Origin: Bedellia somnulentella
Taxonomy: Eukaryota > Arthropoda > Insecta > Lepidoptera > Bedelliidae
Direction of reading: 5' to 3'
Assembly: GCA_963576735.1 (NCBI GenBank)
Contig: OY755171.1
Coordinates: forward strand, 19,566,182 to 19,630,181
DNA length: 64,000 nt
Positions 4,881 to 43,269 of this stretch are shown in pieces. The translations under genes were made by a program, and so were the position numbers. Numbering within the stretch: the first letter of the stretch is position 1; each line of letters begins with the position of its first letter. The notes beneath the pieces are model-generated. The model saw only the letters and a list, made by a program, of their open reading frames with translations, searched no databases and was not told the DNA's origin.

Positions 4881-5778
4881 AATAAATAAAGAATAAATAA
4901 AGGAAAGAAAAATTTCGACACAGGCGGGAATCGAAACCCGCGACCTCGGGTATACGCCCCGACGCTCTGCCAACTGAGCCACCGTGTCAATTGGCTGCCA
5001 GTGCGAAATTCTTCTATCCTTTATTTCTTTTACACGTTTAAGTAGTGTTTTGCGTTTCCTACCTCCGAATTTTAACTAATTCGGAAGGCCACTTGTCTAC
5101 CTTTTCAGATAGAATGCAAATGTTGAAAACGCCTAACTATCACATAATTTAAATCTTTTTGTTCATGAAAACCTCATGTGGGGATTATTACTAATAAATA
5201 AAGAATAAATAAAGGAAAGAAAAATTTCGACGCAGGCGGGAATCGAACCCGCGACCTCGGGTATACGCCCCGACGCTCTGCCAACTGAGCCACCGTGTCA
5301 ATTGGCTGCCAGTGCGAAATTCTTCTATCCTTTATTTCTTTTACACGTTTAAGTAGTGTTTTGCGTTCCCTACCTACCTACAAAAAAAAAATTATTTCCC
5401 TTATTTATTCTTTATTTATTAGTAATAATCCCCACATGAGGTTTTCATGAACAAAAAGATTTAAATTATGTGATAGTTAGGCGTTTTCAACATTTGCATT
5501 CTATCTGAAAAGGTAGACAAGTGGCCTTCCGAATTAGTTAAAATTCGGAGGTAGGAAACGCAAAACACTACTTAAACGTGTAAAAGAAATAAAGGATAGA
5601 AGAATTTCGCACTGGCAGCCAATTGACACGGTGGCTCAGTTGGCAGAGCGTCGGGGCGTATACCCGAGGTCGCGGGTTCGATTCCCGCCTGTGTTGAAAT
5701 TTTTCTTTCCTTTATTTATTCTTTATTTATTAGTAATAATCCCCACATGAGGTTTTCATGAACAAAAAGATTTAAATT
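4881..5778. mobile_element. SINE-5 composite, inverted units, 12-bp target duplication
   Basis: The insertion is flanked by ATCATCGTGCAT (4869-4880) and ATCATCCTGCAT (5779-5790). Removing it rejoins the LINE endonuclease frame (…KSSC-IDMITSS…). It contains two minus-oriented tandem units (period about 313 bp) followed by a little over one plus-oriented unit (5404-5778, period about 311 bp). Each unit has a tRNA-like domain, for example plus strand 5627-5696: GGCTCAGTTGGCAGAGC (A box), a TCGGG/CCCGA anticodon-type stem and GCGGGTTCGATTCCCGC (B box), with ends that can pair as an acceptor stem. Flanking non-tRNA sequence makes this a SINE-like repeat rather than a tRNA gene. Confidence 0.75.
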
Positions 5779-9048: not shown

Positions 9049-9115
9049 TCACCACAATCTCAATGAAAACGAAATCAATATTTAAAAATAGAAACAACAG
9101 TTCAGTAAAATTTCT

Positions 9116-9121
9116 TTTATT
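9116..9121 (-). terminator. Poly(A) signal of gene A
   Basis: AATAAA on the minus strand, about 350 nt after the gene A stop. The same hexamer in the same context occurs for gene B at 32551-32556. Confidence 0.55.
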
Positions 9122-9473
9122 CAATACCATCATTGACATCAATTTGAGTCTTAGACTGACCAAAAAGTACGACTTTGTGATAAGGTGTTAATTTGGTATA
9201 CACAAAAGTTATAAACGCCTACACAGTTTTTATGTTGACTTAAATAAAATATTAATTCTATCAACGTCAGTTACTACAAATTCGGTATACTAAAATGCCT
9301 TATTCTTTTTATGATACATAAAATAAAATATCTACCAACCTATCAATTAAATACAGCAGGTAATTTTACTGCGTTTTTAAAGATAAATTGGCATACAAAA
9401 TTTAACTATTCAGTATGAATAAACAGTCATAATCGTCTTTACTCTTACGTTACGTTAGCTTACTTTCGTTTTC

Positions 9474-12400
9474 TTAGTCCGCATTTCTGCGTTGTCTAGC
9501 AGGGCCCGAAGTACCAGTGTTGGTAGATGGTTTAATGACTGGTCGCCATGTACGGGTGAGCTTACTTTCGTTTTCTTCGTCCACATTTCTGCGTTGTCTA
9601 GCAGGGCCCGAAGTACCAGTGTTGGTAGATGGTTTAATGACTGGTCGCCATGTACGAGTGAGCTTACTTTCGTTTTCTTCGTCCACATTTCTGCGTTGTC
9701 TAGCAGGGCCCGAAGTACCAGTGTTGGTAGATGGTTTAATGACTGGTCGCCATGTACGGGTGAGCTTACTTTCTAGTTCCTCGTCCACATTTCTGCGTTG
9801 TCTAGCAGGGCCCGAAGTACCAGTGTTGGTAGATGGTTTAATGACTGGTCGCCATGTACGAGTGAGCTTACTTTCGTTTTCTTCGTCCACATTTCTGCGT
9901 TGTCTAGCAGGGCCTGAAGTACCAGTGTTGGTAGATGGTTTAATGACTGGTCGCCATGTACGAGTGAGCTTACTTTCGTTTTCTTCGTCCACATTTCTGC
10001 GTTGTCTAGCAGGGCCCGAAGTACCAGTGTTGGTAGATGGTTTAATGACTGGTCGCCATGTGCGGGTGAGCTTACTTTCTAGTTCCTCGTCCACATTTCT
10101 GCGTTGTCTAGCAGGGCCCGAAGTACCAGTGTTGGTAGATGGTTTAATGACTGGTCGCCATGTACGGGTGAGCTTACTTTCGTTTTCTTCGTCCACATTT
10201 CTGCGTTGTCTAGCAGGGCCCGAAGTACCAGTGTTGGTAGATGGTTTAATGACTGGTCGCCATGTACGAGTGAGCTTACTTTCGTTTTCTTCGTCCACAT
10301 TTCTGCGTTGTCTAGCAGGGCCCGAAGTACCAGTGTTGGTAGATGGTTTAATGACTGGTCGCCATGTACGGGTGAGCTTACTTTCTAGTTCCTCGTCCAC
10401 ATTTCTGCGTTGTCTAGCAGGGCCCGAAGTACCAGTGTTGGTAGATGGTTTAATGACTGGTCGCCATGTACGAGTGAGCTTACTTTCGTTTTCTTCGTCC
10501 ACATTTCTGCGTTGTCTAGCAGGGCCTGAAGTACCAGTGTTGGTAGATGGTTTAATGACTGGTCGCCATGTACGAGTGAGCTTACTTTCGTTTTCTTCGT
10601 CCACATTTCTGCGTTGTCTAGCAGGGCCAGAAGTACCAGTGTTGGTAGATGGTTTAATGACTGGTCGCCATGTGCGGGTGAGCTTACTTTCTAGTTCCTC
10701 GTCCACATTTCTGCGTTGTCTAGCAGGGCCCGAAGTACCAGTGTTGGTAGATGGTTTAATGACTGGTCGCCATGTACGGGTGAGCTTACTTTCGTTTTCT
10801 TCGTCCACATTTCTGCGTTGTCTAGCAGGGCCCGAAGTACCAGTGTTGGTAGATGGTTTAATGACTGGTCGCCATGTGCGGGTGAGCTTACTTTCTAGTT
10901 CCTCGTCCACATTTCTGCGTTGTCTAGCAGGGCCCGAAGTACCAGTGTTGGTAGATGGTTTAATGACTGGTCGCCATGTACGGGTGAGCTTACTTTCGTT
11001 TTCTTCGTCCACATTTCTGCGTTGTCTAGCAGGGCCCGAAGTACCAGTGTTGGTAGATGGTTTAATGACTGGTCGCCATGTGCGGGTGAGCTTACTTTCG
11101 TTTTCTTCGTCCACATTTCTGCGTTGTCTAGCAGGGCCCGAAGTACCAGTGTTGGTAGATGGTTTAATGACTGGTCGCCATGTACGGGTGAGCTTACTTT
11201 CTAGTTCCTCTTCCACATTTCTGCGTTTTCTAGCAGGGCCCGAAGTACCAGTGTTGGTAGATGGTTTAATGACTGGTCGCCATGTACGAGTGAGCTTACT
11301 TTCGTTTTCTTCGTCCACATTTCTGCGTTGTCTAGCAGGGCCCGAAGTACCAGTGTTGGTAGATGGTTTAATGACTGGTCGCCACTGGCGCTTTTGCCTT
11401 AAATCATCATCATTTTTGGTTTCGCTTGCTAATAGAGACTCAAAAACCTTACTTGTCTCTTGTGCTGGTTTGTTGGTTTCATCTGCAATAAAAGCGTTAG
11501 GTTATTTATTATCTAAAAAAAAAAGTTATGTAGAATTACTATTAGCTATGGAAGAGACGTTATTAAAAAAAATGTCAAGACTATAATAATATACGTGGTC
11601 ATCTCCTTGTATTATGCATATTGATAAACAGATTCTATTGGGTTTCCTCACAGCCTTTATATGTCCCCATCAATGGGCTCGAGCCTACCCAATATAGAGC
11701 GATTTGGCCATAGTCCACCACGCTGGCTAATTGCGGGTTGGCAGACTAACGACTACTATCGTAATAGTAGCCGGGACCGACGGCTTAACGTGCTCTTAAT
11801 TTTCAGATAATCAGGTGATTCAAGCCTGCAATATCCTTCCAAACTGGGTTAAATCTTACAAATTAAATTTGTAAGGTTACCACCCCCGGGGATTGAATCC
11901 GAGACCTCCGTACTTGAAACCAAGCGCTTACCCGCAAGACCACGGAGGCAGTCGCTATTGAGTTTAGACATATGTAAATCAAATTTCTTATCCATTTGAC
12001 AATATTTATCACATTATGTATAGTTGAACAGTACTGAAAAAAAAGCCTTCTTCTAATTGCCATACGTATAAAATATTATCTGCCTTATACACCAATAATC
12101 GGAGATTGTTCTTACCAGACTGTTTCGTGCTTGAAGATAAAACTCCATTTGCAATCTGAAATTGAAAAAAAAATGTTATGGTTTTATATCTATCTAAGCG
12201 GCGATCGATAGTCTCTGCCTGCCACAATGGGAACTAACCGAGTTAGTATACGTATGTGTATGTAGAAAATTACTGCTAACGATACTAGTATTAATGGGAA
12301 GACACATGTTAAGTAATTAATTAATGAGTGAGAATCGGGTGCATAACTAAATGAGTTAAAACAATGAGTTATTGAATAAATGTTGTTGATTATATTTGAA

Positions 12401-13530
12401 GTTGTTTGCCTTGTTTAAATTATTGGGAACGATGCAGAAGAGATTGTTAGTGAGTTGTAAATTTGTGATGAGGTTGAGTTTTGTCCTAATAAAAGATGTT
12501 TATTAGATGCACTGTGTTGCCGGCTCAGAATTTCACTACCCCTTTCTTTCCATGAGTGTCGTAAGCTAAGCGTAGCGTAAGGCCTTTAGTGGTTTTTCGG
12601 TCATGCTGATGGAGACCCATCAACAACGATACTTAATTTCTACCATCTTGACCCCTATCAACTTCCAAATGTGGCTGAGGAGTTTCTAGCTCTAAAGCTC
12701 TGGCTACCCCTTTTTGAGAATAATGGCCGTGAGTTTTTTAAAAAAAAAGACGATACCAGATATTAAAAAAATAAATTGGATTAGTATTTTCTGTTACAAT
12801 AACTCAAATGAATTGCACCCTGTGGAAGGTGCTATTTAAACTTAAACCTGGAATCAATTGTAGTGCATATAGACGAGTGAAAGCATATCTCTAACAAACC
12901 GGACACTTTTTTCGTAGTCCGTTCTTTTCGACAGCGTACTCGAACAGAACGGACTTTTTTTATCCGTTCTGTCATACCGGTATAACAAACAGTATGACAG
13001 ATCGGACTAGACGTTTGCGATCAGCTTGTATTTGCGATCAAGATGATTTAGCAAATATTTAAATTTCTGAATATATTTTCAATATTATTGTTCTATTGTA
13101 ATTAATGACACTGGAACTTATATTAAATATAACTTTATGCGGAAATAATTAATAGGACAATTGGGGGTAGTATTACTTGGTTATATTATGGGGTAGTGTT
13201 ATTCTAAGCCGTGTAGTCTCGGCTTAGAATAACACTACCCCATTTCTACCCGTTGGTGATCGTAAAAGGAGACTAAGGGTATAGGGGCTTATAAAGTGAT
13301 TTTTGGGCGATGTGGTTGGAGACCCGTCACCAAAAACATTTATTATACCAACTTTTCCCCAATCAACTTCCAAAAGTGGCTGAGGAATTTTTCATTCCAA
13401 AGGCTTAGCTACCCCGATAAGGGATTTATAGCCGTGAGTATATGTATGTATGTATGATTTTATTAAGTAATTTTATCTTTAAACTTACCACAATAACTGC
13501 AAGCACGTAACTAATGAATGGTGGTCGCAT
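9474..13530 (-). CDS. Gene A: secreted multi-repeat, furin-site-bounded peptide precursor (three exons)
   Basis: Not a family I recognise. Exons (minus): E1 13530-13489, donor GTAAGT; E2 12155-12116, acceptor TTTCAATTTCAG, donor GTAAGA; E3 11482-9474, acceptor TTTTATTGCAG. Phases join exactly, giving 696 aa. E1 encodes MRPPFISYVLAVIV and E2 IANGVLSSSTKQS, together a signal peptide with a likely cut after the hydrophobic stretch. E3 starts with an acidic propeptide, then RQKR and QWRPVIKPSTNTGTSGP, then about 18 further 34-residue units. Each unit runs NVDEENESKL, TRTWRPVIKPSTNTGTSGPA and RQRR. RQKR and RQRR fit the furin consensus R-X-K/R-R, so processing would free repeated basic Trp/Pro peptides. 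The stop comes from GAA to TAA in the last unit. Coding is supported by exon 1, exon 2 and splice conservation in gene B. An antimicrobial or signalling-peptide role is inference; apidaecin and Baramicin are architectural analogues only. Confidence 0.75.
9477..11400 (-). repeat. 102-bp minisatellite inside gene A exon 3, about 19 units
   Basis: Strict 102-bp period (34 codons), so copy-number change keeps the frame. Units come in two main versions on the minus strand, DEENESKL (GAAAACGAAAGT) and DEELESKL (GAACTAGAAAGT). They are mostly arranged as a trimer of two ENE units and one ELE unit, giving a 306-bp higher-order period. Base changes between units are few, which points to recent unequal exchange or conversion. 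The outermost 5' unit differs (RQKRQWRP instead of LTRTWRP), marking the ancestral junction with the propeptide. Confidence 0.9.
11640..11957 (-). mobile_element. SINE-3 in gene A intron 2
   Basis: tRNA-derived SINE, read on the minus strand from the right: TGCCTCCGTGGTC (A-box region), GGCTTGC-type body and an internal B box (GATTCAATCCC). The body includes TAATTTGTAAGATTTAACCC and a GTCGGTCCCGGCTACTATTA block. It is the same family as 47615-47962 and is absent from the matching gene B intron. Confidence 0.85.
12196..12262 (+). mobile_element. LINE 3' tail remnant
   Basis: Contains GCGGCGATCGATAGTCTCTGCCTGCC…AATGGGAACTAA followed by a GTATG-type tail. It matches the ORF end (W-R-S-I-V-S-A-Y-P-N-G) and tail of the LINE at 32810-32929. 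It is also present at 37834-37895 in copy B, so it was inserted before the duplication. Confidence 0.6.
12524..12735 (+). mobile_element. Family T repeat, variant
   Basis: Head TGTTGCCGGCTCAGAATTTCACTACCCC, then GGAGACCCATCAACAACG, AAATGTGGCTGAGGAGTTTCTAGC and a GGCCGTGAG end. It shares the GGAGTTTCTAGCTCTAAAGCTC variant with 38641-38785, its counterpart in copy B. Confidence 0.75.
12890..13020. other. Hairpin-forming stretch
   Basis: GTCCGTTCT (about 12917) pairs with AGAACGGAC (about 12946), and CCGTTCTGTCATACCGG pairs imperfectly with CAGTATGACAGATCGGAC (about 12990-13008). It may be the remains of a small inverted-repeat element. No function visible. Confidence 0.4.
13188..13456 (+). mobile_element. 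Family T repeat with inverted head duplication
   Basis: A full plus-strand copy (head 13211, TATG tail to 13456) is preceded by an inverted copy of its first 23 bases, so 13188-13210 and 13221-13243 form perfect arms around a 10-base loop. It lies in gene A intron 1. Confidence 0.8.
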
Positions 13531-13575
13531 TGTGCGTCTTGTAAAATAACTTTACTATAGAGCAGTGCTTCAATT

Positions 13576-13610
13576 CTGATACTTATGAATCTAACACACA
13601 CGTTTATATA
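13576..13610 (-). promoter_or_regulatory. Gene A core promoter: TATA box and initiator
   Basis: On the minus strand TATATAAA occupies 13610-13603 and TCAG (arthropod initiator-like) 13579-13576, with 33 nt from the first T of TATA to the initiator A. That leaves a 5' UTR of about 47 nt before the ATG at 13530. The same elements at the same spacing stand before gene B, while upstream sequence differs more. I saw no convincing NF-kB site. Confidence 0.6.
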
Positions 13611-14381
13611 CTTTTCTATCGTTCCTAAACATATGTTGATTTATTTGATCAAGAATACAATAACCATACTTAAAGCCTTATTCATCATTCAAACAATGAT
13701 CAGCACACAACCTGTAGCTGCTTCTATTTATACTCATATTTTGAAAAGAACTTTTGTTAACATCTTACAAATGATAAGCCAAACTCGATAGGGTTGTGTA
13801 GTTTTATACAGATTTCCGATGGCGATTTTTCAGTTTCTTTATTAGATCCTGGGTACTATACAACAAACTAATCCTTTAATACCAATTATGAAGGAAATGG
13901 GAAAAAACAGACGGTTGTGTGCCTGGGGATCGCTTCTCTGGAAATTGGAACTTCTATAGATGCTAAATATTTTAGAAACTTAGAATCTCGATGATGAGTG
14001 TGACGAATATTGTTTGTTTACGTGCTGTGGAATGTGATACTTCTTGCACTGTCAGCGTTTCTATGTAGTGCGCGTCATTTTGCACTGATAGCGCATCGCT
14101 ACACCAATCAAACCTGCCCAAATACAAAAATATGGCTGTCATCTTTAATGTCCTTTATTTCCTTTAAAACAACTCACCAGTATGAATCAAACAAGCCCAA
14201 ATTTGATAGGATTGTGTAGTTATTGTATTTTATTTATGAATTTATTCAGGCATATCAACAGTAGTGTTACATACACCATATTCCACCATAAAGTATTTGG
14301 AATAACAACAGCAGTAAACAATAAAATCAATATTATCTGAATCGCAACCTCTTGTTTTAATTTACGATGTAAACAAACATA

Positions 14382-16617: not shown

Positions 16618-19512
16618 TTATATCAATGTTTCGTCGTTTAAGAATTCTTTTACCGAGTAATAGCATTTTTTTATAAGTAGTTTTTTCAACTGTTGGGGAA
16701 ATTTATCATTTTCAGTTGTTTTGAGTTTGTTGGGCAACTTGTTGTAAATATTTATTGACATTATGTGTGCGTTACACGACTGCATGTGTAGGCGCGTAAC
16801 CGGCATCTGCAATTTGTTTGGGTGTCTCAGTATGTATGGTGTGTCTATATCTTTTCTTTTAGTGTATAAATGTTGATTTTCACGAACGAATTTACAAATT
16901 TCTAGGATATATATACCAGTCAATGTAAGTATGTTATATTTAATGAAATAAGGCCTACAAGAATCCGATTCTGTGATATTTGCAATAATTCTTATTAGTT
17001 TTTTTTGCATAATAAATACCTGAGACGAGTGGGTGCTATTTCCCCATAGTATTATGCCGTAGCTCAGCCAGGAGTTCGCATATGCGAAATAAGTGATACG
17101 CGCGGTTTCTGTACTCGTTGTTTTCTTTATTTCTAGCAAAGCGTACGCAAAGCTACTTAATTTGGATTTAATCCTACTAACATGGGATTTCCAATCAACA
17201 TGAGAGTCAATGTTAATTCCCAATAATGTTGCTTCATTTACTACGTTAATTTTTTCCCCATCATAAGTAAAATCTATGTCAATTTTCTTCTTCTGAGATG
17301 TATGAAAAGCTATTAATTTTGTTTTTTGCGCATTTATTTCCAAATTATGTTTGTGTAGCCAATTCGTTAGGGTTTCAAATAGTGAGGTCAGTTTATTATT
17401 TAAGTCTACATTATTTTGGCAAGGAAGCATTATAGATAGGTCATCAGCAAAGAGTGTGCAGTGAACGTCTTTTATTATTTTAGGAAGGTCATTTATGTAA
17501 ATTAAAAACATCAAACACCCGATTACACACCCCTGGGGTATTGATGCTCTCATTGTTTTGAAATCTGATTGTATAGATTCTATTTCTTTGGTTTCGTAGT
17601 TGTAATATTCAATTTCGACACATTGTATTCGGTTCTGCAAGTAAGATTTAATTAATTTGAGAGTATTTCCGCGGATTCCTACACCATAAAATTTGGTTTC
17701 TAATATATCATATTGAGCTTTGTCGTAAGCTTTTTTTAGGTCTATTAAAATACCAATTGCGTATTCCTTATTTGATATAATTTTTATAGCTTCCTGGATA
17801 TAATTATACACAGCTAAAGTTGTGGACCGGTTTTTCCTAAATCCGTATTGTGAATCGTCTAATATTTTGTATTTACTACAAAAAGAGTTAATACGATTAC
17901 ACAATGCTTTTTCGAATATCTTAGATGAGGTAGGTAGTAAGGCAATGGGTCTATAGTTGTTAGGATTGAGTTTAGAGCTTTTCTTATGAATAGGTTTTAC
18001 GATGGACTTTTTCAAATGGCCGGGAAACACACCTTCTACAAACGATTGATTTATTAGTAAGTAAAATGGTTCCGTCAGTTCCACCGCACATTGTTTAAAT
18101 AAATGAGGTGGTAAATCGTCTAAACCGGAACTTTTTTTACTTTTCAAACATTTTAAAATTCTAAAAACCTCGTTTAAACTTATAGGGTTTAAATACATAC
18201 TATTTTCAATGGGTTGTATAACGGAACAATCATTTTTATTTAATGTATTAATCCTGTCTCCTGCCGATAAGAAGTAGTCGTTAAAAGTAGCAGCCACCTC
18301 TTTTGGGTTACATATGTCTTTGCCGTCAATTTTTAATGTTATATTGTTTTTGTCTCGTCTTGTGTTTTTATTTGTCCTTTCATTGATTATTCTCCACATG
18401 GTTTGTATTTTATTGTCAGATGATTTTAATCTATGTTCATAGCATAATTTTTTGGCTTTGATTATAATCTTTTTTAATATTTTTCCATATTTATTATTGT
18501 GATTTATTAGTCTTTTATCTTTAGAGTGATTTGTTAAAATTCTTAAGAATCTTTTGTTTTTACATGAGTTTTTTATACCGGTTGTTAACCAATGATGTTT
18601 GTGATTTATTGTCAGCTTAATTAACTTTTTCGGTATACATTCGTCTAGTATGTTATTAATGCAATTTTGAAAGCTCTCATAGTTTTCATCAATATTTTTA
18701 CAATTATTAATTATTTTTGACCAATTTATTTGCTTTAATTTAGTTTGAAATTTTAACATATTTACTTCACTAAAAACTCTTCTTTTCATAAACCATTCAT
18801 TTCTTTTCTGTTGTGGTTTCGGTATATTTGTATCTAAATGTATGGCTGTCGCCAAATGATTAGTAAAACCTAGATTCTCCACGGAAGTGTAAAAAGTGTC
18901 GCTGCCGAAATTTGTAAAAATTAAGTCTAAACATGTAGCCGATGTTGGGGTGAAATGTGTAGCTGTCTTTATGTGTTGTTTAAAGTTATACTCCAACATG
19001 AGATCTAAGAACTCGTTTACATTTGCGTTTTTGTCGAGAATATTATAATTAAAGTCACCGCCTATAATAACGTCCCACTTTTGATACCTTTTATTTATAT
19101 GTAAAAGAACTTTACGTACTTGAGTTAGAAATGTTTCTCCCTGTCTTCCATTATGGTAAATAGTGATTAATACAATATTTAGTTTAGTCACAGTCACTGC
19201 AGCGATTTCTATAACATATTCAACAGACTTATCGTTTATTTCTTGCACTTCAATGAATTCCAAATCCTTGTGTAGTAAGATGCAAACGCCGCCCCCTACT
19301 CTTATTTTTCTGCAAAATGTTGCCGCCATGGTATATCCCGTAAAGTTGATCATTGGTAGTTTGTCTTCGGTTAGCCATGACTCCGTGATGCAAATTGCTT
19401 GGTATATGGGATTTCCTTTTATGAATTCTTCTAGTAAATGTTGCTTATTAAAAATGCTCTGGAAGTTTTGGAATAATATATTTATTGTTTGTTTTGTCTT
19501 TCTAGTATCCAC
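16618..19512 (-). CDS. LINE ORF2: endonuclease and reverse transcriptase
   Basis: Encodes about 964 residues. N-terminal APE-type endonuclease: ILFQNFQS (about 12-19), ITESWL with E44, GGDFNYN with D153 and N155, CLDLIFT (about 194-200) and GFTNHLA (215-221). RT: SGLDDLPPHLFK, PIHKKSSKLNPNNYRPIALL, LIDLKKAYD, IPQGCVIGCLMFLIYINDLP, and catalytic FADDLSIML at about residue 687, followed by the usual C-terminal domain (IILWGNS). The element would nick target DNA and prime reverse transcription of its RNA there. Odd points: the frame has no ATG at its head (it opens after a stop at 19530-19528, and the first Met is about residue 54), it overlaps ORF1 by 11 nt, and N218 replaces the Asp of the usual S-D-H motif. 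Otherwise intact over 2.9 kb. Confidence 0.85.
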   Translation of the reverse strand: MDTRKTKQTINILFQNFQSIFNKQHLLEEFIKGNPIYQAICITESWLTEDKLPMINFTGYTMAATFCRKIRVGGGVCILLHKDLEFIEVQEINDKSVEYVIEIAAVTVTKLNIVLITIYHNGRQGETFLTQVRKVLLHINKRYQKWDVIIGGDFNYNILDKNANVNEFLDLMLEYNFKQHIKTATHFTPTSATCLDLIFTNFGSDTFYTSVENLGFTNHLATAIHLDTNIPKPQQKRNEWFMKRRVFSEVNMLKFQTKLKQINWSKIINNCKNIDENYESFQNCINNILDECIPKKLIKLTINHKHHWLTTGIKNSCKNKRFLRILTNHSKDKRLINHNNKYGKILKKIIIKAKKLCYEHRLKSSDNKIQTMWRIINERTNKNTRRDKNNITLKIDGKDICNPKEVAATFNDYFLSAGDRINTLNKNDCSVIQPIENSMYLNPISLNEVFRILKCLKSKKSSGLDDLPPHLFKQCAVELTEPFYLLINQSFVEGVFPGHLKKSIVKPIHKKSSKLNPNNYRPIALLPTSSKIFEKALCNRINSFCSKYKILDDSQYGFRKNRSTTLAVYNYIQEAIKIISNKEYAIGILIDLKKAYDKAQYDILETKFYGVGIRGNTLKLIKSYLQNRIQCVEIEYYNYETKEIESIQSDFKTMRASIPQGCVIGCLMFLIYINDLPKIIKDVHCTLFADDLSIMLPCQNNVDLNNKLTSLFETLTNWLHKHNLEINAQKTKLIAFHTSQKKKIDIDFTYDGEKINVVNEATLLGINIDSHVDWKSHVSRIKSKLSSFAYALLEIKKTTSTETARITYFAYANSWLSYGIILWGNSTHSSQVFIMQKKLIRIIANITESDSCRPYFIKYNILTLTGIYILEICKFVRENQHLYTKRKDIDTPYILRHPNKLQMPVTRLHMQSCNAHIMSINIYNKLPNKLKTTENDKFPQQLKKLLIKKCYYSVKEFLNDETLI

Positions 19513-20626
19513 GAAAGGAACTTTGGCCTATTTTCTCAAAAGTGTTGTTCTGTTGGCGTCTAGTGAAATTTAGTTTTCTTATCTTGAGTCCCTCCTCGTC
19601 CAAATGTTCCATTAGCCATAAACCAGTACCTTTAAATGCATTCTTATTTGATAAAAGGTATTTTGTCATTCTTTTACTTAAAAGTTCTATTTTTAGAGGT
19701 CTTCGCCAGCCTCTCTTTCCTATTCTTTCATAATCTTCAATGTAGCCTTCCAAATTCACGCCAATGATATCATCAAAAATATTCACTATTCTTTCGTGTA
19801 CTTGCCAGTCAGTTTCATTTTGGTATTCGTTTAGACCGTACAGGACAATTGTTTTGCTGTAATCTTCTTGTGATTTTATTAAGTTAGTAGTAGGCAAAGT
19901 TTTGTTGGTCGACATTTCATCCTTCTGGCTTTTATCTTCTAATGTAGAGTTTGTTAAGTGATTTTGCGTAGATGTTAACTTACTATTAGTTTTGCGGATT
20001 TCATCTTTAATAAGTTTATTTTCCAGTTCCAATTGAGTAATTCTTTCGCACTGTTTGTCGGTTTTGGTTTGTAGAGTATAAAATTTGCTTTCTAAAGTAC
20101 TAAATCTCTCATTGATGGTATTTAACTCTTTTCTTAATGCGTTGATTGTTTCATATAATTTTTTGTCTCTGTCATTTTGATTTTGAGTGAGACTGTGTAT
20201 CATTAGCTTAAGCTCGCTAAATTCATTGAATATATTACGCTTTTTGTTCTCTATCGAGGGTGTCAGTATTATAGTTTCGCCGCCAGGTAAGGTATCTTCT
20301 ACAAATGAAAGATCATAGCTTTGATTTTGAATGATTTTGCGTCTTTGTGTTACATTTGCACAGTTTCTTTCCTCTTCCGTCTCCGAGTCGGATGGTAGTT
20401 GCCTAACAGGAGTATTTGTATTATCAATCTTAGGCTGTTTTGATATACACCTCGGGCATTTCCATTTGTCCTTATGTTCGCTTGTCATTGTGTTATAAAA
20501 TCTAACTTCGGGCACATTAACGCAATCAATGTGGAATTTGTGCGCACATTTTGAGCATGTAAGGAATCTCCTGTCTGTTATATTCTTTAAGCATGCCCCG
20601 CATAGCGTTTTGTTTTGTGGCTCCAT
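19502..20626 (-). CDS. LINE ORF1: PHD finger, coiled coil and RNA-binding-like domain
   Basis: 374 aa from a good ATG at 20626. Residues 9-60 carry the eight metal ligands of a PHD finger: C9, C12, C24, C27, H32, C35, C57 and C60. A long polar heptad-rich stretch (about 140-225) suggests a coiled coil for trimer or multimer formation. Residues 260-374 (KTIVLYGLNEYQNETDW onward) resemble the RRM/CTD portion of ORF1 proteins that binds element RNA. PHD-bearing ORF1 is known in CR1-group LINEs. Its last codons (AGT TCC TTT CGT GGA TAC TAG) overlap the start of the ORF2 frame. No breaks seen. Confidence 0.8.
   Translation of the reverse strand: MEPQNKTLCGACLKNITDRRFLTCSKCAHKFHIDCVNVPEVRFYNTMTSEHKDKWKCPRCISKQPKIDNTNTPVRQLPSDSETEEERNCANVTQRRKIIQNQSYDLSFVEDTLPGGETIILTPSIENKKRNIFNEFSELKLMIHSLTQNQNDRDKKLYETINALRKELNTINERFSTLESKFYTLQTKTDKQCERITQLELENKLIKDEIRKTNSKLTSTQNHLTNSTLEDKSQKDEMSTNKTLPTTNLIKSQEDYSKTIVLYGLNEYQNETDWQVHERIVNIFDDIIGVNLEGYIEDYERIGKRGWRRPLKIELLSKRMTKYLLSNKNAFKGTGLWLMEHLDEEGLKIRKLNFTRRQQNNTFEKIGQSSFRGY
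19510..19519 (-). promoter_or_regulatory. Candidate +1 ribosomal frameshift site
   Basis: In the ORF1 frame the minus strand reads TCC TTT CGT G. If the Phe tRNA slips from TTT to TTC, decoding continues GTG GAT ACT AGA, exactly the ORF2 frame. TCC TTT CGT is the core of the +1 shift site used by influenza A PA-X. No shift is proved here; stop-restart on the overlapping TAG is the alternative. Confidence 0.5.
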
Positions 20627-28607: not shown

Positions 28608-28610
28608 AGC

Positions 28611-32437: not shown

Positions 32438-32550
32438 ACAGTAATCGAGGTGGTCACCACAATCTCAATGTCTCGTGGTTTGTAGGGTAATTCAGTCGGC
32501 AGATTTATATAAATATTTATAAATAGTAACAACAGTTTAGTCATATCGGT

Positions 32551-32556
32551 TTTATT
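32551..32556 (-). terminator. Poly(A) signal of gene B
   Basis: AATAAA on the minus strand in the context shared with gene A (9116-9121), about 520 nt after the gene B stop. The added distance comes mainly from a later LINE-tail insertion. Confidence 0.5.
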
Positions 32557-32809
32557 CAATACAAGCTACGAGTATATATAATAGAGAGGGAGATTATAAC
32601 AAAAACTATGAACAACAATTTGAGTTTAAGACTAACCAAAAAGTATGACTTTGTGATAGGGTGTTAATTTGGTATATATAAAAATTATAAGCGCCTATAC
32701 AGTTTTTCTAATTACTTGAATAAAATATTAATTCTATCAGCGTCTGTAACTACAAATTCGGTATACAAAAACGCCCTATTTTTTATGATATATAATATAA
32801 AAGAAAAAA

Positions 32810-32929
32810 GGAAGATTGATGGATGCAAACGAAGCTAGAGAGGTTTGTCAGGATCGTACGAAGTGGCGATCGATAGTCTCTGCCTACCCCAATGGGAATT
32901 AATGGCGTGAGTATATGTATGTATGTATG
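32810..32929 (+). mobile_element. 5'-truncated LINE, 14-bp target duplication
   Basis: Flanked by TATAAAAGAAAAAA at 32796-32809 and 32930-32943. The plus strand encodes RLMDANEAREVCQDRTKW, then RSIVSAYPNGN-stop, the C-terminus of a LINE RT protein, and ends in (TATG)n. It lies in the gene B 3' UTR; copy A has the empty site (near 9325). Confidence 0.85.
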
Positions 32930-33072
32930 TATAAAAGAAAAAATCTATCAGCGTATCAATTATATACAGCAGGTAATTTAATGTGTTAAAAAATATAAAT
33001 TGACATACAACAGTTAACTATTCAGTATGAATAAACAGCCATAATCGTCTTTACTATATTATATAACTGATT

Positions 33073-36000
33073 CTAAGATACAACATTTCTTCTAGCAGGG
33101 CCCGAAGTAGCTGTGTTGGTAGATGGCAGACTAACTGGTCGCCACTGGCGCTTTTGCCTTAAAACATTACTTGTCTCTTGTACTCCTTTGTAGTTTTCAT
33201 CTGCAAAAAAAGTTTTAAGTTTGTAATAAAAAATTACTGAAAAAAGTAATGTAGAATAAATATTAAGTATGGAAGAAAACTTAATGAAAAATGTCAGGAC
33301 TATAATAATATACGTGGCCAACTCATTGTACTATGGATATTGCAAAACGGGTTGCTGACCCAATAGACTTAATACTGTAAATTTGCTTATGCCAAACTTT
33401 AGGCGTTTTTTCCGGTTCTCTGAGTTCAATCAGGCGTGACTATTTTACTGGCCAAATTTATCCTAGATGAAAAGTATCCTATGTCACAATTTGGGTCATT
33501 ATCGTGCATTCTAGCAGGGTCCGAAGTACCTGTGTTGGTAGATGGCTGAATGACTGGTCGCCACTGGCACTTTGGCCTTAAAAAGTTCTCATATTTTGTT
33601 TCGCTTGCTAATAGATTTTATTGTTAGCTTACTTTCGTTTTCTTCTTCCGCATTTCTGCGTTTTCTAGCAGGGCCCGAAGTAGCTGTGTTGGTAGATGGC
33701 AGACTGACTGGTCGCCACTGGCGCTTTTGCCTTAAAACATTACTTGTCTCTTGTACGCCTTTGTTGTTTTCATCTGCAAAAAAAGTTTTATTTTGTAATA
33801 AAAAATTACTGAAAAAAGTAATGTAGAATAATTATTAAGTATGGAAGAAAACTTAATGAGAAAAATCTCAGGACTATAATAATATACGTGGCCAACTCAT
33901 TGTACTATGGATATTGCAAAACGGGTTGCTGACCCAATAGACTTAATACTGTAAATTTGCTTATGCCAAACTTTAGGCGTTTTTTCCGGTTCTCTGAGTT
34001 CAATCAGGCGTGACTATTTTACTGGCCAAATTTATCCTAGATGAAAAGTATCCTATGTCACAATTTGGGTCATTATCGTGCATTCTAGCAGGGTCCGAAG
34101 TACCTGTGTTGGTAGATGGCTGAATGACTGGTCGCCACTGGCACTTTGGCCTTAAAAAGTTCTCATATTTTGTTTTGCTTGTTAATAGATTTTATTGTTA
34201 GCTTATTTTCGTTTTCTTCTTCCGCATTTCTGCGTTTTCTAGCAGGGCCCGAAGTAGCTGTGTTGGTAGATGGCAGACTGACTGGTCGCCACTGGCGCTT
34301 TTGCCTTAAAACATTACTTGTCTCTTGTACTCCTTTGTAGTTTTCATCTGCAAAAAAAGTTTTAAGTTTGTAATAAAAAAAAAACTGAAAAAAGTAATGT
34401 AGAATAATTATTAAGTATGGAAGAAAACTTAATGAGAAAAATCTCAGGACTATAATAATATACGTGGCCAACTCATTGTACTATGGATATTGCAAAACGG
34501 GTTGCTGACCCAATAGACTTAATACTGTAAATTTGCTTATGCCAAACTTTAGGCGTTTTTTCCGGTTCTCTGAGTTCAATCAGGCGTGACTATTTTACTG
34601 GCCAAATTTATCCTAGATGAAAAGTATCCTTTGTCACAATTTGGGTCATTATCTTGCATTCTAGCAGGGTCCGAAGTACCTGTGTTGGTAGATGGCTGAA
34701 TGACTGGTCGCCACTGGCACTTTGGCCTTAAAAAGTTCTCATTTTTTGTTTCGCTTGCTAATAGATTTTATTGTTAGCTTACTTTCGTTTTCTTCGTCCG
34801 CATTTCTGCGTTTTCTAGCAGGGCCCGAAGTAGCTGTGTTGGTAGATGGCAGACTGACTGGTCGCCACTGGCGCTTTTGCCTTAAAACATTACTTGTCTC
34901 TTGTACTCCTTTGTTGTTTTCATCTGCAAAAAAAGTTTTAAGTATGAAATAAAAAAAAACTGAAAAAAGTAATGTAGAATAATATTAAGTATGGAAGAAA
35001 ACTTAATGAGAAAAATCTCAGGACTATAATAATATACGTGGCCAACTCATTGTACTATGGATATTGCAAAACGGGTTGCTGACCCAATAGACTTAATACT
35101 GTAAATTGGCTTATGCCAAACTTTAGGCGTTTTTTCCGGTTCTCTGAGTTCAATCAGGCGTGACTATTTTACTGGCCAAATTTATCCTAGATGAAAAGTA
35201 TCCTTTGTCACAATTTGGGTCATTATCTTGCATTCTAGCAGGGTCCGAAGTACCTGTGTTGGTAGATGGCTGAATGACTGGTCGCCACTGGCACTTTGGC
35301 CTTAAAAAGTTCTCATTTTTTGTTTCGCTTGCTAATAGATTTTATTGTTAGCTTACTTTCGTTTTCTTCTTCCGCATTTCTGCGTTTTCTAGCAGGGCCC
35401 GAAGTAGCTGTGTTGGTAGATGGCAGACTGACTGGTCGCCACTGGCGCTTTTGCCTTAAAACATTACTTGTCTCTTGTACGCCTTTGTTGTTTTCATCTG
35501 CAAAAAAAGTTTTAAGTTTGTAATAAAAAATTACTGAAAAAAGTAATGTAGAATAATTATTAAGTATGGAAGAAAACTTAATGAGAAAAATCTCAGGACT
35601 ATAATAATATACGTGGCCAACTCATTGTACTATGGATATTGCAAAACGGGTTGCTGACCCAATAGACTTAATACTGTAAATTTGCTTATGCCAAACTTTA
35701 GGCGTTTTTTCCGGTTCTCTGAGTTCAATCAGGCGTGACTATTTTACTGGCCAAATTTATCCTAGATGAAAAGTATCCTTTGTCACAATTTGGGTCATTA
35801 TCTTGCATTCTAGCAGGGTCCGAAGTACCTGTGTTGGTAGATGGCTGAATGACTGGTCGCCACTGGCACTTTGGCCTTAAAAAGTTCTCATTTTTTGTTT
35901 CGCTTGCTAATAGATTTTATTGTTAGCTTACTTTCGTTTTCTTCGTCCGCATTTCTGCGTTTTCTAGCAGGGCCCGAAGTAGCTGTGTTGGTAGATGGCA

Positions 36001-36960: not shown

Positions 36961-39900
36961 TGCCAAACTTCAATCATATATACATTATGTACTTGAGGAG
37001 CCTTTTCGCCTCAAACACACAAACATCTAAACTTTCACATACATACATACATATACTCACAGCTATATTTCCCTTGAAGAAAACTTTCACATTTATAATA
37101 TTAATAGGATACATGCTTACTTAAGGTTAAGCTGTGTAGTGTCGGCGACTAAGGATGCCAGGGTTTTCTAAGGGATTTTTGGACAACGTCTTTGGAGACC
37201 CATCACCAATAACTTTTATTTTACCATCTTTTCCCCACTCAACTTTCCATGTGGCTGAGGAATTTCTAATTCCTTAGCTCCGGCTACCCCTTCAAGGAAT
37301 TAATAGCCATTACTTATAGAATTTCTTATCCATTTGACAATATTGAACATATTTTGTATAGTTGAACTGTACTGAAAAAAATAATCATTTTCTAATTGAT
37401 CATTTTTTTGCTGTGTAGTGTCGGCTTAGAATAGTACTACCCCATTTCTTCCGGTGGGTGTACGTAAGAGGCGACTAACGGTATTGAGGCTTTTAAGGGA
37501 TTTTTGGGCGATGCGGTTGGAGACCCATCACCAACAACCTTTATTTCACCATCTTTTCCCCACGCAACTTCCAAAGGTAGCTGAGGAATGTCTCATTCCC
37601 TAGCTCTGGCTACCCCTTCAAGGGATTTATAGCCGTGAGTATATGTTTGTTTGTATGTATGTTTCTAATTGCTTTTTCTAGTTGGAATACGTATGAATTA
37701 TTCTCTAAGTATCTGCCTTTTACGCCATTCATCGGAGCTTGTTCTTACCAGACTGTTTCGTGCTTGAAGATAAGACTCCATTTGCAATCTGAAATTGAAA
37801 AAAGAGTGGTTATAGTTTTTTATCTACCTAATTGGCGATCGAAAGTCTCTTCCTATCCCAATGGGAACTAACGGAGTGAGTACACATATATGTATATGGA
37901 AAAGTACTGCTGACGATACTACTATTGATGGGGAGACATACATACATACATATACTCACGGCTATAAATCCCTAGAAAGGGTAGCCAGAGCTAAGGAGCT
38001 AGAAGTTCCTCAGCCACTTTTGGAAAGTTGAGTGGGGAAAAGATGGCAAAATAAAGGTTCTTGGTGATGGGTCTCCAACCGCATTGCCCAAAATCCCTTA
38101 AAATCCCCAACACCGTTAGTCGCCTCTTACGTACACCCACCGGAAGAAATGGGGTAGTGTTATTCTAAGCCGACAGTACACAGCAACACAGTACTACACA
38201 GCAGGGAGACATATGTTAAGTAATTAATTAGTAAGTCGAGGGTATAGGGTGAATTAATAAATGAGTTGTTGAATAAATGTTTGTTGATTGTATTTGAAGC
38301 TGGTTGTTGCTTTGTTACAATTATTGTGAAAGATTCAGAAGAGATTTTTAGTGAGTTGTAATATTACGCTATGTAGTGTCGGCATAGAATAGCACTACCC
38401 CATATCTTCCGGTGGTGTACGTAAGAGGCGACTAACGGCATTGGGGCTTTAATTTAAAGGGATTATTGGGCGATGCGGTTGGAGACCCATCACCAACAAC
38501 CTTTATTTTACCATCTTTTCCCCACTCAACTTTCCAAAGGTGGCTGATGAAATTCTCATTCCTTCCTAAGGAGTCGCCTCTTACGACACCCGTGGGTAGA
38601 AAGGGGTAGCGACATTCTAAGCCGGCACTACACGGCATCCAAGATACCCATCACCAAGGTACCTTATATCTACCATCTTGTTCTCTACCAACATCCAAAT
38701 GTGGCTGAGGAGTTTCTAGCTCTAAAGCTCTGACTACCAATTTTTGGGATTCATGGCCGTGAATATATGTATGTAAATGAACAAAAGACGGAACCAGATA
38801 TATAAAAATAAATACATACACACATATACTCACGGCTATATTTCCCTAGAAGAGGTAGCCAGAGCTAAGGAATTAAAAATTCCTCAGCCACTTTTGGAAG
38901 TTGCGTGGGCAAAAGATGGTAAAAATAAAGGTTGTTGGTGATGGGTCTCCAACCGCATCGCCCAAAAATCCCTTAAAAAGCCCCAATACCGTTAGTCGCC
39001 TCTTACGTACACCCACCGGAAAAAGCCGACACTACACAGCAAAATAAAAATAAATCTGTTCAGTATTTTTTGTAACATTTATTTAAACGAATTGCACAGC
39101 ACACTGTGTTAGGGTGCTATTTAAACAACGACCTAGAATCTATCGTAATGCGTAAAGACGTGTAATAAAATCAATAATGGGTCATATGCATGAGACAAAA
39201 ATAACGGATAATCTCAGAATTATTTGACCCCAATTCCTATTAACGAATAATGTTTATGGTTATTTATAGTATTTGTGGGAGTACTGTTAAAGCAAGCTCA
39301 TAGCAACATCTTACATATATTCATAGATCACGGTATGTACTTAAATGTTTCTCGGCACAGCAGAGTGTGCTGGGTATCTTTTTGCTGTTTCTACATGTTT
39401 TTACACAAGACAGTTGATAGGAACTTTACTGTCAACCGAGGTGTGAGCTGTCAGGTGAGGGGTGTCGGGAGTAGGCTTTTTTTAGTGTGATGGTGAGCCA
39501 GTGATTATTATATAAAACTAGCTGACCCGACAGACTACGTACTGTCAAATTTGCTTATGACAAAACTTTAGGCGTTTTTTCCGGTACTCTTAGTTCAATC
39601 AGCCGTGAATATTTTATTGTTAATTTTTCCGGGATGAAAAGTATTCTATTTGACAATTTGGGTCATTATCAAGCATTCTGCCATATTTCATTAATATATA
39701 TTACGTACTTGTGGAGCCTTTTCGTATCAAACACACAAACATCCGAATATCTAAACTTTCACGTTTATAATATTAACCAACTTTTTGTGAGCGACGGCGT
39801 TGTAAAGGATATAAAGAGATTGAGGCTTTTTATTTTTGGGCGATGCATCCTTAAAAACCTTTATTTAACTACTCTTTCCCCAATCTATTTCCAAAAGTGG

Positions 39901-41584
39901 ATGAAGAATTACCATCTCTGAAGCTATGGAACCCTTTTATGGAATTTATAGCCGCTAGTATATACTCATGAATGATTGATAAATTAATTTCATTATTTCA
40001 ATCGCACTAAGTTTTATGTCTCTAGATAAAAATGACAAAAATCTCTGTATTGACTTTCATTTGCTATATCAACCTCTTAGGGGCTGAGTTCCGAAAATTT
40101 ACTTTTTAATTGTGCATAAGAACATGAAACAAACTATTTTTTACCAAGTTTCTATGTTCAAAAATGAGAATATCTTAGTAAGTACAAATACGAATAGTAG
40201 TTTGACGCTTCGGCGGCGGCTTGGTGCTGCCCCCTACACTGACCGATTATTGCTCGGGAATATAATGGGGATGGGGATAGTTAGTGGTGGGTCTCCATCA
40301 TAAATAATCACTGAAGTGAAGGGATAGTGCTTGCTAATATTATGTATAGCTATTCTTAGCTAATAAAACATTATTTTTTTACAAGAAGATTGAATCACCT
40401 GAGATACGAAGCCGGACGATGTATTCATAATAACACTAATTAAATATTCATAGTAGTTATACCGCTACGCAAATTTTTATTACGCTATATTTTATATTAG
40501 TCTTAGTATTGATAAACAAATAAGTCATTTGAACGTACTTTTTTTTTGCTGAAAATGGATGAAACCTATAGATCTTTCCAAAATGAACATTAATGAAGAG
40601 TCTGATGTGAAGTCCATCGATGAAAAAAATAATCGCTGCAATATGTTGAGCCATGTATGAGTTAAGATTTTTTGATGCTCCTGTAGGAACCCTTGTGAAT
40701 TACTCATTTTCGGGGTTTTATTATTGTATCATTTAGCTTCTAAATTTAGATGTTTATATTAGTTTGCAATATATTACTTTGTTCTAAACGGCACACAATG
40801 CCATCTCCTTGGAGCATTGTGTGCAGCATGCAAACAATAATTTGACTTTCACTCGGAACTATCACTTCTTTCCGGGATTAAAAGTAACTTATTATTATAA
40901 CAACCGTGACAGCTCAATGGGTAGAACACCGGTTATTATGCAAACGACTAGTGTTCAAATTCCGGGTCGGGCATACACGAATTTGTCTTTTCTAAAAACA
41001 TATATGGAGCTACTTTATCATGGTTGTTAACGGTGAGAGAAAACATGGCGAGGAAACCCACATGGCTGAGTTGTACTTAGTCATGTGACAGTGTGTTCGT
41101 ACAAAACGGCGATAAGCCTGCCCCCTATCACGTGAGTACACTGTCCAAGCAAAACGTGGTTACTCTGTACACGAGGTGACAAAGTCACGTGATATTCAGA
41201 AGTATTAGTACCTCTGCCAACTCTGATATTCGGCGTAAACGTTTATGTTTATGTTATGTTATGCTATACGTCTAACTATACGTCTGCAAAATTTCAAAGC
41301 AATCGGGTCTATAGTTACGGCGTGAAAGCGGCACAAACAAACAAACAAACATAACATAAATCAAATTAAAACCATCATAAGACTACACTATAAAAAAAAA
41401 CATTTAGATGAATTGAAAACTTCCTTTTTTTGCAGCCGGTTAAAAAGACATTACCTTTTTGCGATCAGCTTCATCTTCGTAGGAATCTTAATATGATGAT
41501 TCAGAAAAACAAAATAAAATAAAAAGCCTTTAAACTTACCACAATAACCGCAAGCACGTAACTAATGGATAGTGGTTGCATCAT
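33073..41584 (-). CDS. Gene B: paralogue of gene A with tandem repeated exons
   Basis: Exons (minus): E1 41584-41540 (donor GTAAGT), E2 37788-37749 (donor GTAAGA), E3 36648-36508, E4 36072-35932, E5 35497-35357, E6 34923-34783, E7 34347-34207, E8 33773-33633, E9 33200-33073. E1 encodes MMQPLSISYVLAVIV; E2 is identical in protein to gene A, with one silent change. E3-E8 are each 141 nt, phase 1 at both ends, with acceptors TTTTTTTGCAG and donor GAAA/GTAAGC, so any number keeps frame. Each encodes ENYKGVQETSNVL, RQKR, QWRPVSLPSTNTATSGPA, RKRR and NADEENE (some units ENNKGV or NAEEENE): acidic spacer, furin-type site, basic peptide, furin-type site. E9 ends SGPARRNVVS. E7 has lost its donor (GT to AT). 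Predicted 352 aa with six units, 305 aa if E7 is skipped. The exon model is inferred from conserved sites; no transcript was seen. Confidence 0.65.
36961..37130 (+). mobile_element. End fragment of a dispersed repeat
   Basis: GAGCCTTTTCGCCTCAAACACACAAACATC and CTTTCACATTTATAATATTA recur at 39715-39775 (with GACCCGACAGACTACGTACTGTC at its left) and in part at 26548. The class is not determined; possibly an RTE-like or Helitron-like end. Confidence 0.5.
37131..37312 (+). mobile_element. Family T repeat, internally deleted
   Basis: Head GCTGTGTAGTGTCGGC is joined directly to GACTAAGGATGCCAGGG; the rest follows the family to AATTAATAGCC. The head's following 40 bases are missing. Confidence 0.8.
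37411..37665 (+). mobile_element. Family T repeat, full length
   Basis: GCTGTGTAGTGTCGGCTTAG head to GTGAGTATATGTTTGTTTGTATGTATG tail. It interrupts copy B between blocks that are adjacent in copy A (11998-12060), so it came after the duplication. Confidence 0.9.
37936..38195 (-). mobile_element. Family T repeat, full length
   Basis: Minus-oriented. It splits a copy B block (GATGGGGAGACA / AGGGAGACATATGTTAAG) that is continuous at about 12296-12312 in copy A, giving GGGAGACATA-like duplicated flanks. Confidence 0.9.
38372..38785 (+). mobile_element. Nested family T repeats
   Basis: Three joined pieces: a plus copy cut short (38372-38560), a short minus piece (AAGGAGTCGCCTCTTACGACACCC to GCCGGCACTACACGGC, 38561-38640) and a plus variant copy (38641-38785) orthologous to 12600-12735 in copy A. 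Confidence 0.75.
38815..39042 (-). mobile_element. Family T repeat
   Basis: Minus-oriented copy from the CACACATATACTCACGG tail to AGCCGACACTACACAGC, lacking about 25 bases before the head. Confidence 0.85.
39520..39780 (+). mobile_element. Dispersed repeat beginning CTAGCTGACCCGACAGAC
   Basis: Starts AACTAGCTGACCCGACAGAC, shares TTTAGGCGTTTTTTCCGGTACTC with the gene B array introns, and ends CTTTCACGTTTATAATATTA. A second start of the family lies at 41893. The gene B array introns thus contain part of this repeat. Confidence 0.6.
39785..39972 (+). mobile_element. Family T repeat, old copy
   Basis: Recognisable by TTTTTGGGCGATGC, CTTTCCCCAATCTATTTCC and GGAATTTATAGCCGCTAG; many changes and deletions. 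Confidence 0.65.
39973..40902. other. No gene seen, in gene B intron 1
   Basis: AT-rich sequence with only short open frames and no clear repeat family. Confidence 0.45.
40903..41272 (+). mobile_element. SINE-1, full length
   Basis: tRNA-like head (CCGTGACAGCTCAATGGGTAG; GTGTTCAAATTCCGGG) to tail GTTTATGTTTATGTTATGTTATG. It sits in gene B intron 1 and is absent from copy A. Confidence 0.9.
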
Positions 41585-41625
41585 GCGTCTTGTAAATAAC
41601 TTTACTATAGAGCAATGCTTCAATT

Positions 41626-41660
41626 CTGATACTTATGAATCTAACACACACGTTTATATA
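41626..41660 (-). promoter_or_regulatory. Gene B core promoter: TATA box and initiator
   Basis: TATATAAA at 41660-41653 and TCAG at 41629-41626, 33 nt apart as in gene A, followed by a 5' UTR of about 43 nt to the first ATG. Around it, copies A and B are almost identical (GAAAAGTATATAAACGTGTG). Confidence 0.6.
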
Positions 41661-43244: not shown

Positions 43245-43269
43245 ATTGGTGACAGAAGTGGATTTGAAG

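Follow-up and report, generated by a model that had tools for sequence, protein, structure and literature searches.

Two predicted secreted peptide-precursor paralogues in the moth Bedellia somnulentella: repeats within an exon and repeats of an exon

In the yeast gene MF-alpha-1, a larger number of repeats raises the output of a signalling peptide (PMC5850478). Baramicin A of Drosophila is a secreted precursor in which three copies of related short peptides with an N-terminal Gln are parted by RXRR, and the charges of these peptides are near neutral (IM10 +1.1, IM12 +0.1, IM13 -0.9; PMC8423362). The ant hymenoptaecin multipeptide precursor, which has been likened to apidaecin precursors, carries six head-to-tail copies of a 97-aa peptide without introns between them, set apart by an EAEP spacer and an RR processing site (PMC3415428). 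Lebocins of Lepidoptera derive from secreted precursors with several RXXR motifs (PMC5282435). In Nasonin-6, defensin-like repeats without processing signals lie one to an exon between phase-1 introns, a layout interpreted as exon duplication (PMC2853521). A further route to new gene structure was described in potato, where a tandem duplication activated a GTAAG donor and thereby created an intron (PMC4974935).

We describe herein two genes, A and B, in a 64,000-nucleotide window of the B. somnulentella genome (GCA_963576735.1, contig OY755171.1, 19,566,182 to 19,630,181). It is probable that both encode secreted, convertase-cut multicopy prepropeptides and are paralogues, A having grown by unequal exchange inside one exon and B by tandem exon duplication. 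Phase-exact joins, repeats, cleavage motifs, homology of promoters, exons and 3' ends, and cassette breakpoints are all seen in the sequence (Table 1), from which we infer transcription, splicing, secretion and cleavage of the A and B products.

Table 1. Features of genes A and B (positions in the window; gene structures are predicted)
Feature	Position	Strand	Details
Gene A core promoter and 5'UTR	13531..13630	-	TATAAA at -78; 94/101 alignment columns identical to gene B
Gene A exon 1	13489..13530	-	42 nt; MRPPFISYVLAVIV; opens the putative signal peptide; donor GTG/GTAAGT, phase 0
Gene A exon 2	12116..12155	-	40 nt; IANGVLSSSTKQS; acceptor TTTCAG; donor CTG/GTAAGA; phase 1 at 3' end
Gene A exon 3	9474..11482	-	Acceptor TTGCAG; 32 aa through RQKR, then 19 WRPVIKPSTNTGTSGPA copies with R[QK]RR; TAA
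Gene A 3'UTR	9074..9443	-	AATAAA near 9120; homologous (blastn and alignment) to 32509-33055 of gene B
Gene B exon 1	41540..41581	-	MQPLSISYVLAVIV; 38/42 nt identical to A exon 1
Gene B exon 2	37749..37788	-	IANGVLSSSTKQS; peptide identical to A exon 2
Gene B predicted cassette exon C1	36508..36648	-	141 nt, phase 1-1; RQKR-QWRPVSLPSTNTATSGPA-RKRR; acceptor TTTTGCAG; donor AAA/GTAAGC
Gene B predicted cassette exon C2	35932..36072	-	
Gene B predicted cassette exon C3	35357..35497	-	
Gene B predicted cassette exon C4	34783..34923	-	
Gene B cassette C5	34207..34347	-	AT in place of donor GT; possible skipping would leave the frame intact
Gene B predicted cassette exon C6	33633..33773	-	
Gene B predicted terminal exon C7 and 3'UTR	32509..33200	-	QWRPVSLPSTNTATSGPARRNVVS, stop, without RKRR; 3'UTR homologous to that of A

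Conceptual joining of the three predicted exons of gene A (minus strand, 13530-9474) gave an in-phase coding sequence of 2091 nt and 696 aa with a single stop, the terminal TAA, and thereby bore out the initial annotation, which had joined them at 13489/12155 and 12116/11482. The exon 1 donor is equalled in score by only 0.4% of minus-strand GTs, and the exon 2 donor by 0.8% of GTs. A putative signal peptide, read by eye, has a hydrophobic stretch (ISYVLAVIVIA) and small residues at positions -3/-1 (A-N-G); split over exons 1 and 2, it would direct the precursor into the secretory pathway. Including this peptide, the sequence ahead of copy 1 spans 59 aa, and after the final RQRR the protein ends in NAD. 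The array has a period of 102 and 18.9 copies in Tandem Repeats Finder (score 3562), and is thus not a chance feature. Only 9/102 columns vary among the 18 full units compared, and the 17-residue core is invariant in 19/19 copies, as expected from the initial claim of about 19 near-identical peptides. One plus-strand frame is likewise without stops across the array; a gene in this 702-aa stop-to-stop frame was set aside, no paralogue, splice or signal-peptide evidence for it having been noticed in passing.

Regularly spaced RX[KR]R sites surround the repeated peptide in gene A and in the predicted gene B product, as in a processed multicopy precursor: 20 sites in A (one RQKR, 18 RQRR and one RKRR) and 13 in B (seven RQKR and six RKRR). 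The initial annotation had every 34-residue unit of A ending in RQRR, which holds for 18 of the 19, the remaining one ending in RKRR; it rightly placed RQKR before the first peptide. A furin-like convertase would cut after RQKR, RQRR and RKRR, and carboxypeptidase trimming would then leave many copies of a short linear peptide rich in Trp/Arg/Pro and Ser/Thr (QWRPVIKPSTNTGTSGPA or QWRPVSLPSTNTATSGPA; core WRPV-x-x-PSTNT-x-TSGPA). Directly after an RQKR, the peptide would begin with Gln, which may be converted to pyroglutamate. Each added copy may raise the dose of peptide per transcript. The sites for such a release, as first proposed, are present, but in gene A copy 1 alone directly follows RQKR, and copies 2-19 are preceded by KLTR-T. 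Since this leaves the acidic spacer (NV[DE]EE[NL]ESKLTR) attached, furin alone would yield a single short peptide, the other eighteen products being 34-residue units; short peptides from copies 2-19 would need cleavage at KLTR too. The 18-residue peptides of A and B differ at three residues and are probably disordered and linear. Their calculated charge is +1.0 in A (N-terminus blocked) and 0.0 in B, and that of the 30-residue gene A product (without RQRR) about -0.1, so that the label "basic peptide" given at first fits poorly. The gene A unit is hydrophilic (GRAVY -1.54). Ala, rather than the Gly needed for amidation, precedes R[QK]RR in all 19 gene A units and the six RKRR sites of predicted gene B.

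Gene B lies on the same strand, from 41581 to about 32.5 kb, and starts about 19 kb away from A. Common to the two are the core promoter, exons 1-2, the reading frame, the processing motifs and the 3' end, and this paralogue, together with the anatomy of gene A, supports the secreted multicopy precursor proposed initially. The promoter block is equally far from the ATG in both, and its TATAAA stands at -78 (A) or -77 (B). Around exon 2 identity is 164/196 (83.7%), compared to 94/101 in the core promoter. Exon 2 itself is identical at 39/40 nt, the single change being synonymous; changes are thus 1/40 in the exon compared with 32/196 in the flanking sequence (p 0.022 by Fisher's test, uncorrected). 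Where leader and first unit were aligned, the coding sequence shows a single indel, of 42 nt and in frame, whereas non-coding indels are of many lengths. A comparison of A unit 1 with B cassette C1 (77 codons) showed no sign of overall purifying selection, pN (0.085) being about equal to pS (0.090), and this counts against the favoured reading; from RQKR to RQRR each of the two equals 0.090.

Where gene A has its array within one exon, gene B has seven tandem cassettes, of which C1-C6 measure 573-576 bp each. The cassette donor is of moderate strength, 3.1% of GTs reaching its score, and is intact in five of C1-C6, C5 having lost it. Because phases are 1-1, any subset of cassettes keeps the frame, and serial splicing would yield seven QWRPVSLPSTNTATSGPA copies. 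Variable columns in C1-C6 number 3/141 in exons and 30/436 in the remainder (p 0.036, uncorrected). Each predicted intron of C1-C6 holds a second, relic unit, with RPKC (6/6) where the exon copies have RQKR (6/6). Downstream, the six relics have RMQD (four) or RMHD (two), this site having been severed at the duplication breakpoint rather than decayed. The contrast of RPKC with RQKR is weak evidence, since the six relics share RPKC by descent and their downstream site was cut by the breakpoint. The breakpoints fit an intron gain by tandem duplication of the exon with a piece of the upstream intron, in which a GTAAG lying latent within coding sequence, and still coding in the 18 full units of gene A, would have been recruited as donor. 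As in potato (PMC4974935), the acceptor would be inherited from the upstream intron and the latent exonic GTAAG turned into a donor; unlike that case, the predicted gene B would reiterate the step over six cassettes. The one-repeat-per-exon layout with phase-1 introns is that of Nasonin-6 (PMC2853521), although predicted C1-C6 have two processing sites each.

Alternatively, the cassettes may be alternative or pseudo 3' exons, giving one copy per mRNA (88 aa when reading through C1, 69 aa via C7). Reading past the donor meets a stop about 14 codons on in each of C1-C6, AATAAA follows shortly 3' of the donor in all six, and C5 has lost its donor. We nonetheless regard this as somewhat unlikely: the A-homologous 3'UTR sits after C7, the phases preserve the frame, five of six donors persist, and the breakpoints match the potato route (PMC4974935).

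Searches for relatives, proposed as a check in the initial annotation, found none. In the protein database, a 154-aa query had no match at E<=1 among 6364 candidates, nor did a 400-aa exon-3 query among the 7990 candidates scored. A LINE ORF from the window, used as a control, had 87 matches at E<=1e-50, one of them insect-named (the moth Phthorimaea operculella); these negatives are therefore weak, the database evidently covering animals in part, though insect proteomes seem sparse in it. PDB gave nothing at E<=1, and the 7 (viral_contigs) and 22 (genome_contigs) pattern matches included no confirmed one, little being expected of viruses and prokaryotes. NCBIfam gave one match only, far under its cut-off. 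Two gene A queries matched no neuropeptide or antimicrobial-peptide model of Pfam at E<=1, and no Pfam or NCBIfam match of gene A above its curated cut-off had at least one significant stretch. DUF6222 and GTA_holin_3TM (Pfam, exon 3) passed the whole-protein cut-off with 0 significant stretches and were read as chance scores summed over repeats. Exact core strings had no match in open-licence PMC papers, and no such peptide was found in the available parts of that literature on analogues. The absence of relatives agrees with the "new family" of the initial annotation; its novelty is unproven because the databases searched hold few insects.

As to function, host defence is our tentative first choice, followed by a role in gland secretion, venom, signalling or reproduction. 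The "antimicrobial or neuropeptide" suggested initially is likewise an inference, with a hardly cationic core, Ala in place of Gly, and no strict kappa-B site weighing against it. Strict sites (GGGRNNYYYY) number 0 and 0 within 1 kb upstream of A and B, which says little, as only 0.36 per kb is expected by density; the looser GGRRNNYYYY occurs 1 and 3 times (0.97 expected per kb). Baramicin A offers a parallel in its secreted precursor, RXRR-parted short peptides, N-terminal Gln and near-neutral charge, but has three copies rather than 19 or 7, and its IM10-like VXRPXRTV motif is absent, by eye, from QWRPVIKPSTNTGTSGPA and QWRPVSLPSTNTATSGPA (PMC8423362). Baramicin carries IM24 and IM22 domains next to its repeats; the corresponding flanks in gene A are the 59 aa ahead of copy 1 and the terminal NAD. 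Gene A shares with ant hymenoptaecin the intronless head-to-tail copies, spacer and basic processing site, yet differs in its spacer, short core, R[QK]RR sites and 19 copies (PMC3415428). Several RXXR motifs in a secreted precursor also recall lebocins (PMC5282435), compared here by description only; Pro makes up 3/18 of our peptide.

That the same processed precursor instead serves signalling, in the manner of a neuropeptide or pheromone, or supplies venom, a gland product or seminal fluid with its peptide is unlikely. Weak charge, the lack of strict kappa-B sites within 1 kb and the three residues that separate the A and B peptides would suit it, but no amidation Gly precedes R[QK]RR, and the Pfam matches include no neuropeptide model. 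To our knowledge, the core resembles no neuropeptide family, which also counts against a signal. We know of no lebocin precursor that holds one peptide in many repeats. In favour of a signal, multicopy precursors also occur outside defence, as yeast MF-alpha-1 illustrates (PMC5850478).

Quite improbable is a locus without function that derives from a dead gene and consists of a 102-nt minisatellite plus a tandem array of 575-bp units amid abundant transposons. An open frame, once formed, persists in a repeat whose length is a multiple of 3, and the stop-free plus-strand frame, the near equality of pN and pS, and the homogenised array (units 9-12 equal units 15-18 at variable columns; units 8 and 14 differ at one) all accord with it. 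Nevertheless, both paralogues retain intact exons 1-2 and splice sites, together with the promoter and a polyadenylation signal, exon 2 has changed less than its flanks, and the coding indel is in frame. More improbable still is a protein that is secreted but stays uncut, a structural or mucin-like component of gland, cuticle or gut lining that is rich in Ser/Thr, perhaps O-glycosylated, and has RQRR as a basic repeat motif. PSTNTGTSGPA 19 times over and the hydrophilic unit would suit it, but not R[QK]RR at the end of all 19 A units, nor such motifs on both sides of the peptide in predicted B C1-C6.

A lineage-specific family, with one peptide amplified twice side by side by in-exon expansion (A, 19 copies) and by serial intron and exon creation via a latent GTAAG (B, up to seven), is a possible reading, offered with reserve. 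If real, it would be a peptide family that homology searches would overlook, and would let nature's two means of increasing dose, repeats in an exon and repeats of an exon, be compared side by side. The intron gain of gene B would be traceable across six near-identical cassettes in which the source intron, the donor and the breakpoint can still be recognised. Moreover, if the dual-route reading is true, splice choice in gene B could determine how many peptide copies each mRNA encodes, with the frame unbroken.

The initial annotation read gene A, a minus-strand gene, as a secreted polyprotein yielding about 19 near-identical peptides. Its three exons do join as claimed, giving 2091 nt that encode 696 amino acids plus a stop, and the 17-residue core is identical in 19 of 19 copies. 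The array has a period of 102 nucleotides (18.9 copies), and a comparison of the 18 full units shows 9 variable positions out of 102: four are purely synonymous, one is a Q/K change in the cleavage site, one gives D/E, and three lie within a single codon alternating between AAC and CTA (N/L), with which a silent GAA/GAG change co-occurs. The unit sequences suggest at least one duplication of a six-unit block, since units 9-12 equal units 15-18 at the variable columns and units 8 and 14 differ once; mean unit-to-unit differences over lags 1-8 have minima at lag 3 (1.93) and lag 6 (2.33). Antisense to the array runs a plus-strand, stop-to-stop frame of 702 aa (9478-11586), which the absence of a stop from the 102-nt unit in that frame probably explains.

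The gene A precursor contains 20 furin-type RX[KR]R sites. Copy 1 is preceded by RQKR, as had been proposed, and followed by RQRR. The other 18 copies are each preceded by KLTR-T; furin cleavage by itself would therefore yield units such as NVDEENESKLTRTWRPVIKPSTNTGTSGPARQRR. KLTR is a weaker, K-x-x-R type site. The core consists of Trp/Arg/Pro and then a Ser/Thr tail, and is hardly cationic; the calculated charge is -0.09 (about neutral) for the trimmed 30-mer and +1.0 for the 18-mer with a blocked N-terminus.

Features of the gene A and gene B region (window positions)
Feature	Position	Strand	Remark
Gene A exon 1	13530-13489	minus	
Gene A exon 2	12155-12116	minus	
Gene A exon 3	11482-9474	minus	
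Gene B	32509-41862	minus	paralogue of gene A on which the reading largely turns; seven exon cassettes
Gene B exon 1	41581-41540	minus	38/42 nt identical to gene A
Gene B exon 2	37788-37749	minus	39/40 nt identical to gene A, peptide unchanged
Gene B cassettes C1-C7	starts 36648, 36072, 35497, 34923, 34347, 33773, 33200	minus	
Relic peptide unit QWRPVIQPSTNTG[TI]SDPA	33498-36492	minus	second unit of each C1-C6, inside predicted introns
Two-ORF LINE	16618-20668	minus	PHD-finger ORF1, 388 aa
Probable second LINE	27600-32115	minus	Pfam matches of ORFs to RNase H and endonuclease
519-aa ORF	43243-44802	plus	integrase-p58 C-terminal match above cut-off
Three tRNA-Tyr genes	4915-5697	two minus, one plus	inside 800 bp

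Gene B was detected by tblastn inside the window, on the strand of gene A. The two genes share promoter and 5'UTR (238/273 identical, 87.2%; 94/101 in the nearest 100 bases), exon 2 flanks (164/196), and the last coding bases with the 3'UTR (353/433), which in gene B follows C7. Cassettes C1-C6 are 573-576 bp long, each with a predicted exon of 141 nt (phase 1-1). TTTTGCAG directly precedes all seven cassette exons, and the donor AAA|GTAAGC ends the exon in five of C1-C6, C5 having AT for GT. Serial splicing of all seven is predicted to give a 351-aa precursor that contains seven peptide copies and 13 cleavage sites, or 304 aa if C5 is skipped.

In C1-C6, the exon is followed by an in-frame stop, beyond which lies the second unit, out of frame and flanked by RPKC on its upstream side and, on its downstream side, by RMQD in four cassettes and RMHD in two. 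This unit loses its downstream end to the cassette breakpoint at position ~262 of the cassette, and C2 DNA from the breakpoint to the next exon matches, at 94.9% over 314 bp, the intron sequence that precedes C1 (36961-36649). The cassettes thus seem to have arisen by tandem duplication of a segment that begins within intron 2 and ends midway through the second unit. AGA or AGAA is common to both sides of the join, as judged from related units, an unbroken second unit being absent. The duplicated intron piece looks like a transposon fragment, because part of it recurs at 39679-39521 (83.9% identity). The acceptor of the new intron would have been inherited from the old one, and its donor would be the GTAAG present in the unit, a sequence that lies within codons (Ser-Lys) in each of the 18 full gene A units. 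A potato gene is described as having gained an intron by a similar route, in which the duplication activated a GTAAG donor (PMC4974935).

The window (GC 37.1%) contains LINE ORFs and many short interspersed repeats, and judging by its repeats it looks lepidopteran. The sole named LINE relative is from the moth Phthorimaea operculella. ORF2 of the two-ORF LINE encodes an endonuclease/reverse transcriptase of 969 aa without internal stops, and the probable second LINE, whose RNase H and endonuclease ORFs the Pfam scan covered, lies directly beyond the gene B 3' end. The 519-aa ORF carries, in one frame with its integrase-p58 match, coiled-coil matches and a PNMA-like match below cut-off.

Exon 2 is conserved above its flanks (p 0.022, uncorrected), and the cassette exons vary at 3/141 positions versus 30/436 in the rest of the cassette (p 0.036, uncorrected; related copies are not independent). 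Against such constraint, pS and pN are nearly equal (0.090 and 0.085, small counts) over 77 aligned codons of gene A unit 1 and gene B C1. The short pro-region differs between the genes by six non-synonymous and no synonymous changes (small counts). These values fit a secreted precursor evolving fast under a fixed processing scheme; they may instead reflect weak constraint.

Host defence ranks first as the putative role of the peptide, ahead of a gland, signalling or reproductive function. No GGGRNNYYYY site occurs within 1 kb of the ATG of either gene, which is weak evidence because just 0.36 per kb are expected; GATA sites number 4 and 3 near the two ATGs (2.7 expected per kb). According to PMC8423362, IM10-like peptides of BaraA are likewise near-neutral and inhibit fungi jointly with a membrane-disrupting agent, so the low charge of the core appears compatible with defence.

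The core string had no match in the open-licence PMC papers searched, and the protein no relative in the protein database, Pfam, NCBIfam, PDB and two contig collections, which hardly cover insect proteomes. A multicopy precursor with convertase sites is an already known layout, seen in apidaecin, hymenoptaecin and Baramicin. The unusual part is the presence of two amplification modes side by side, together with the apparent reiterated intron gain.
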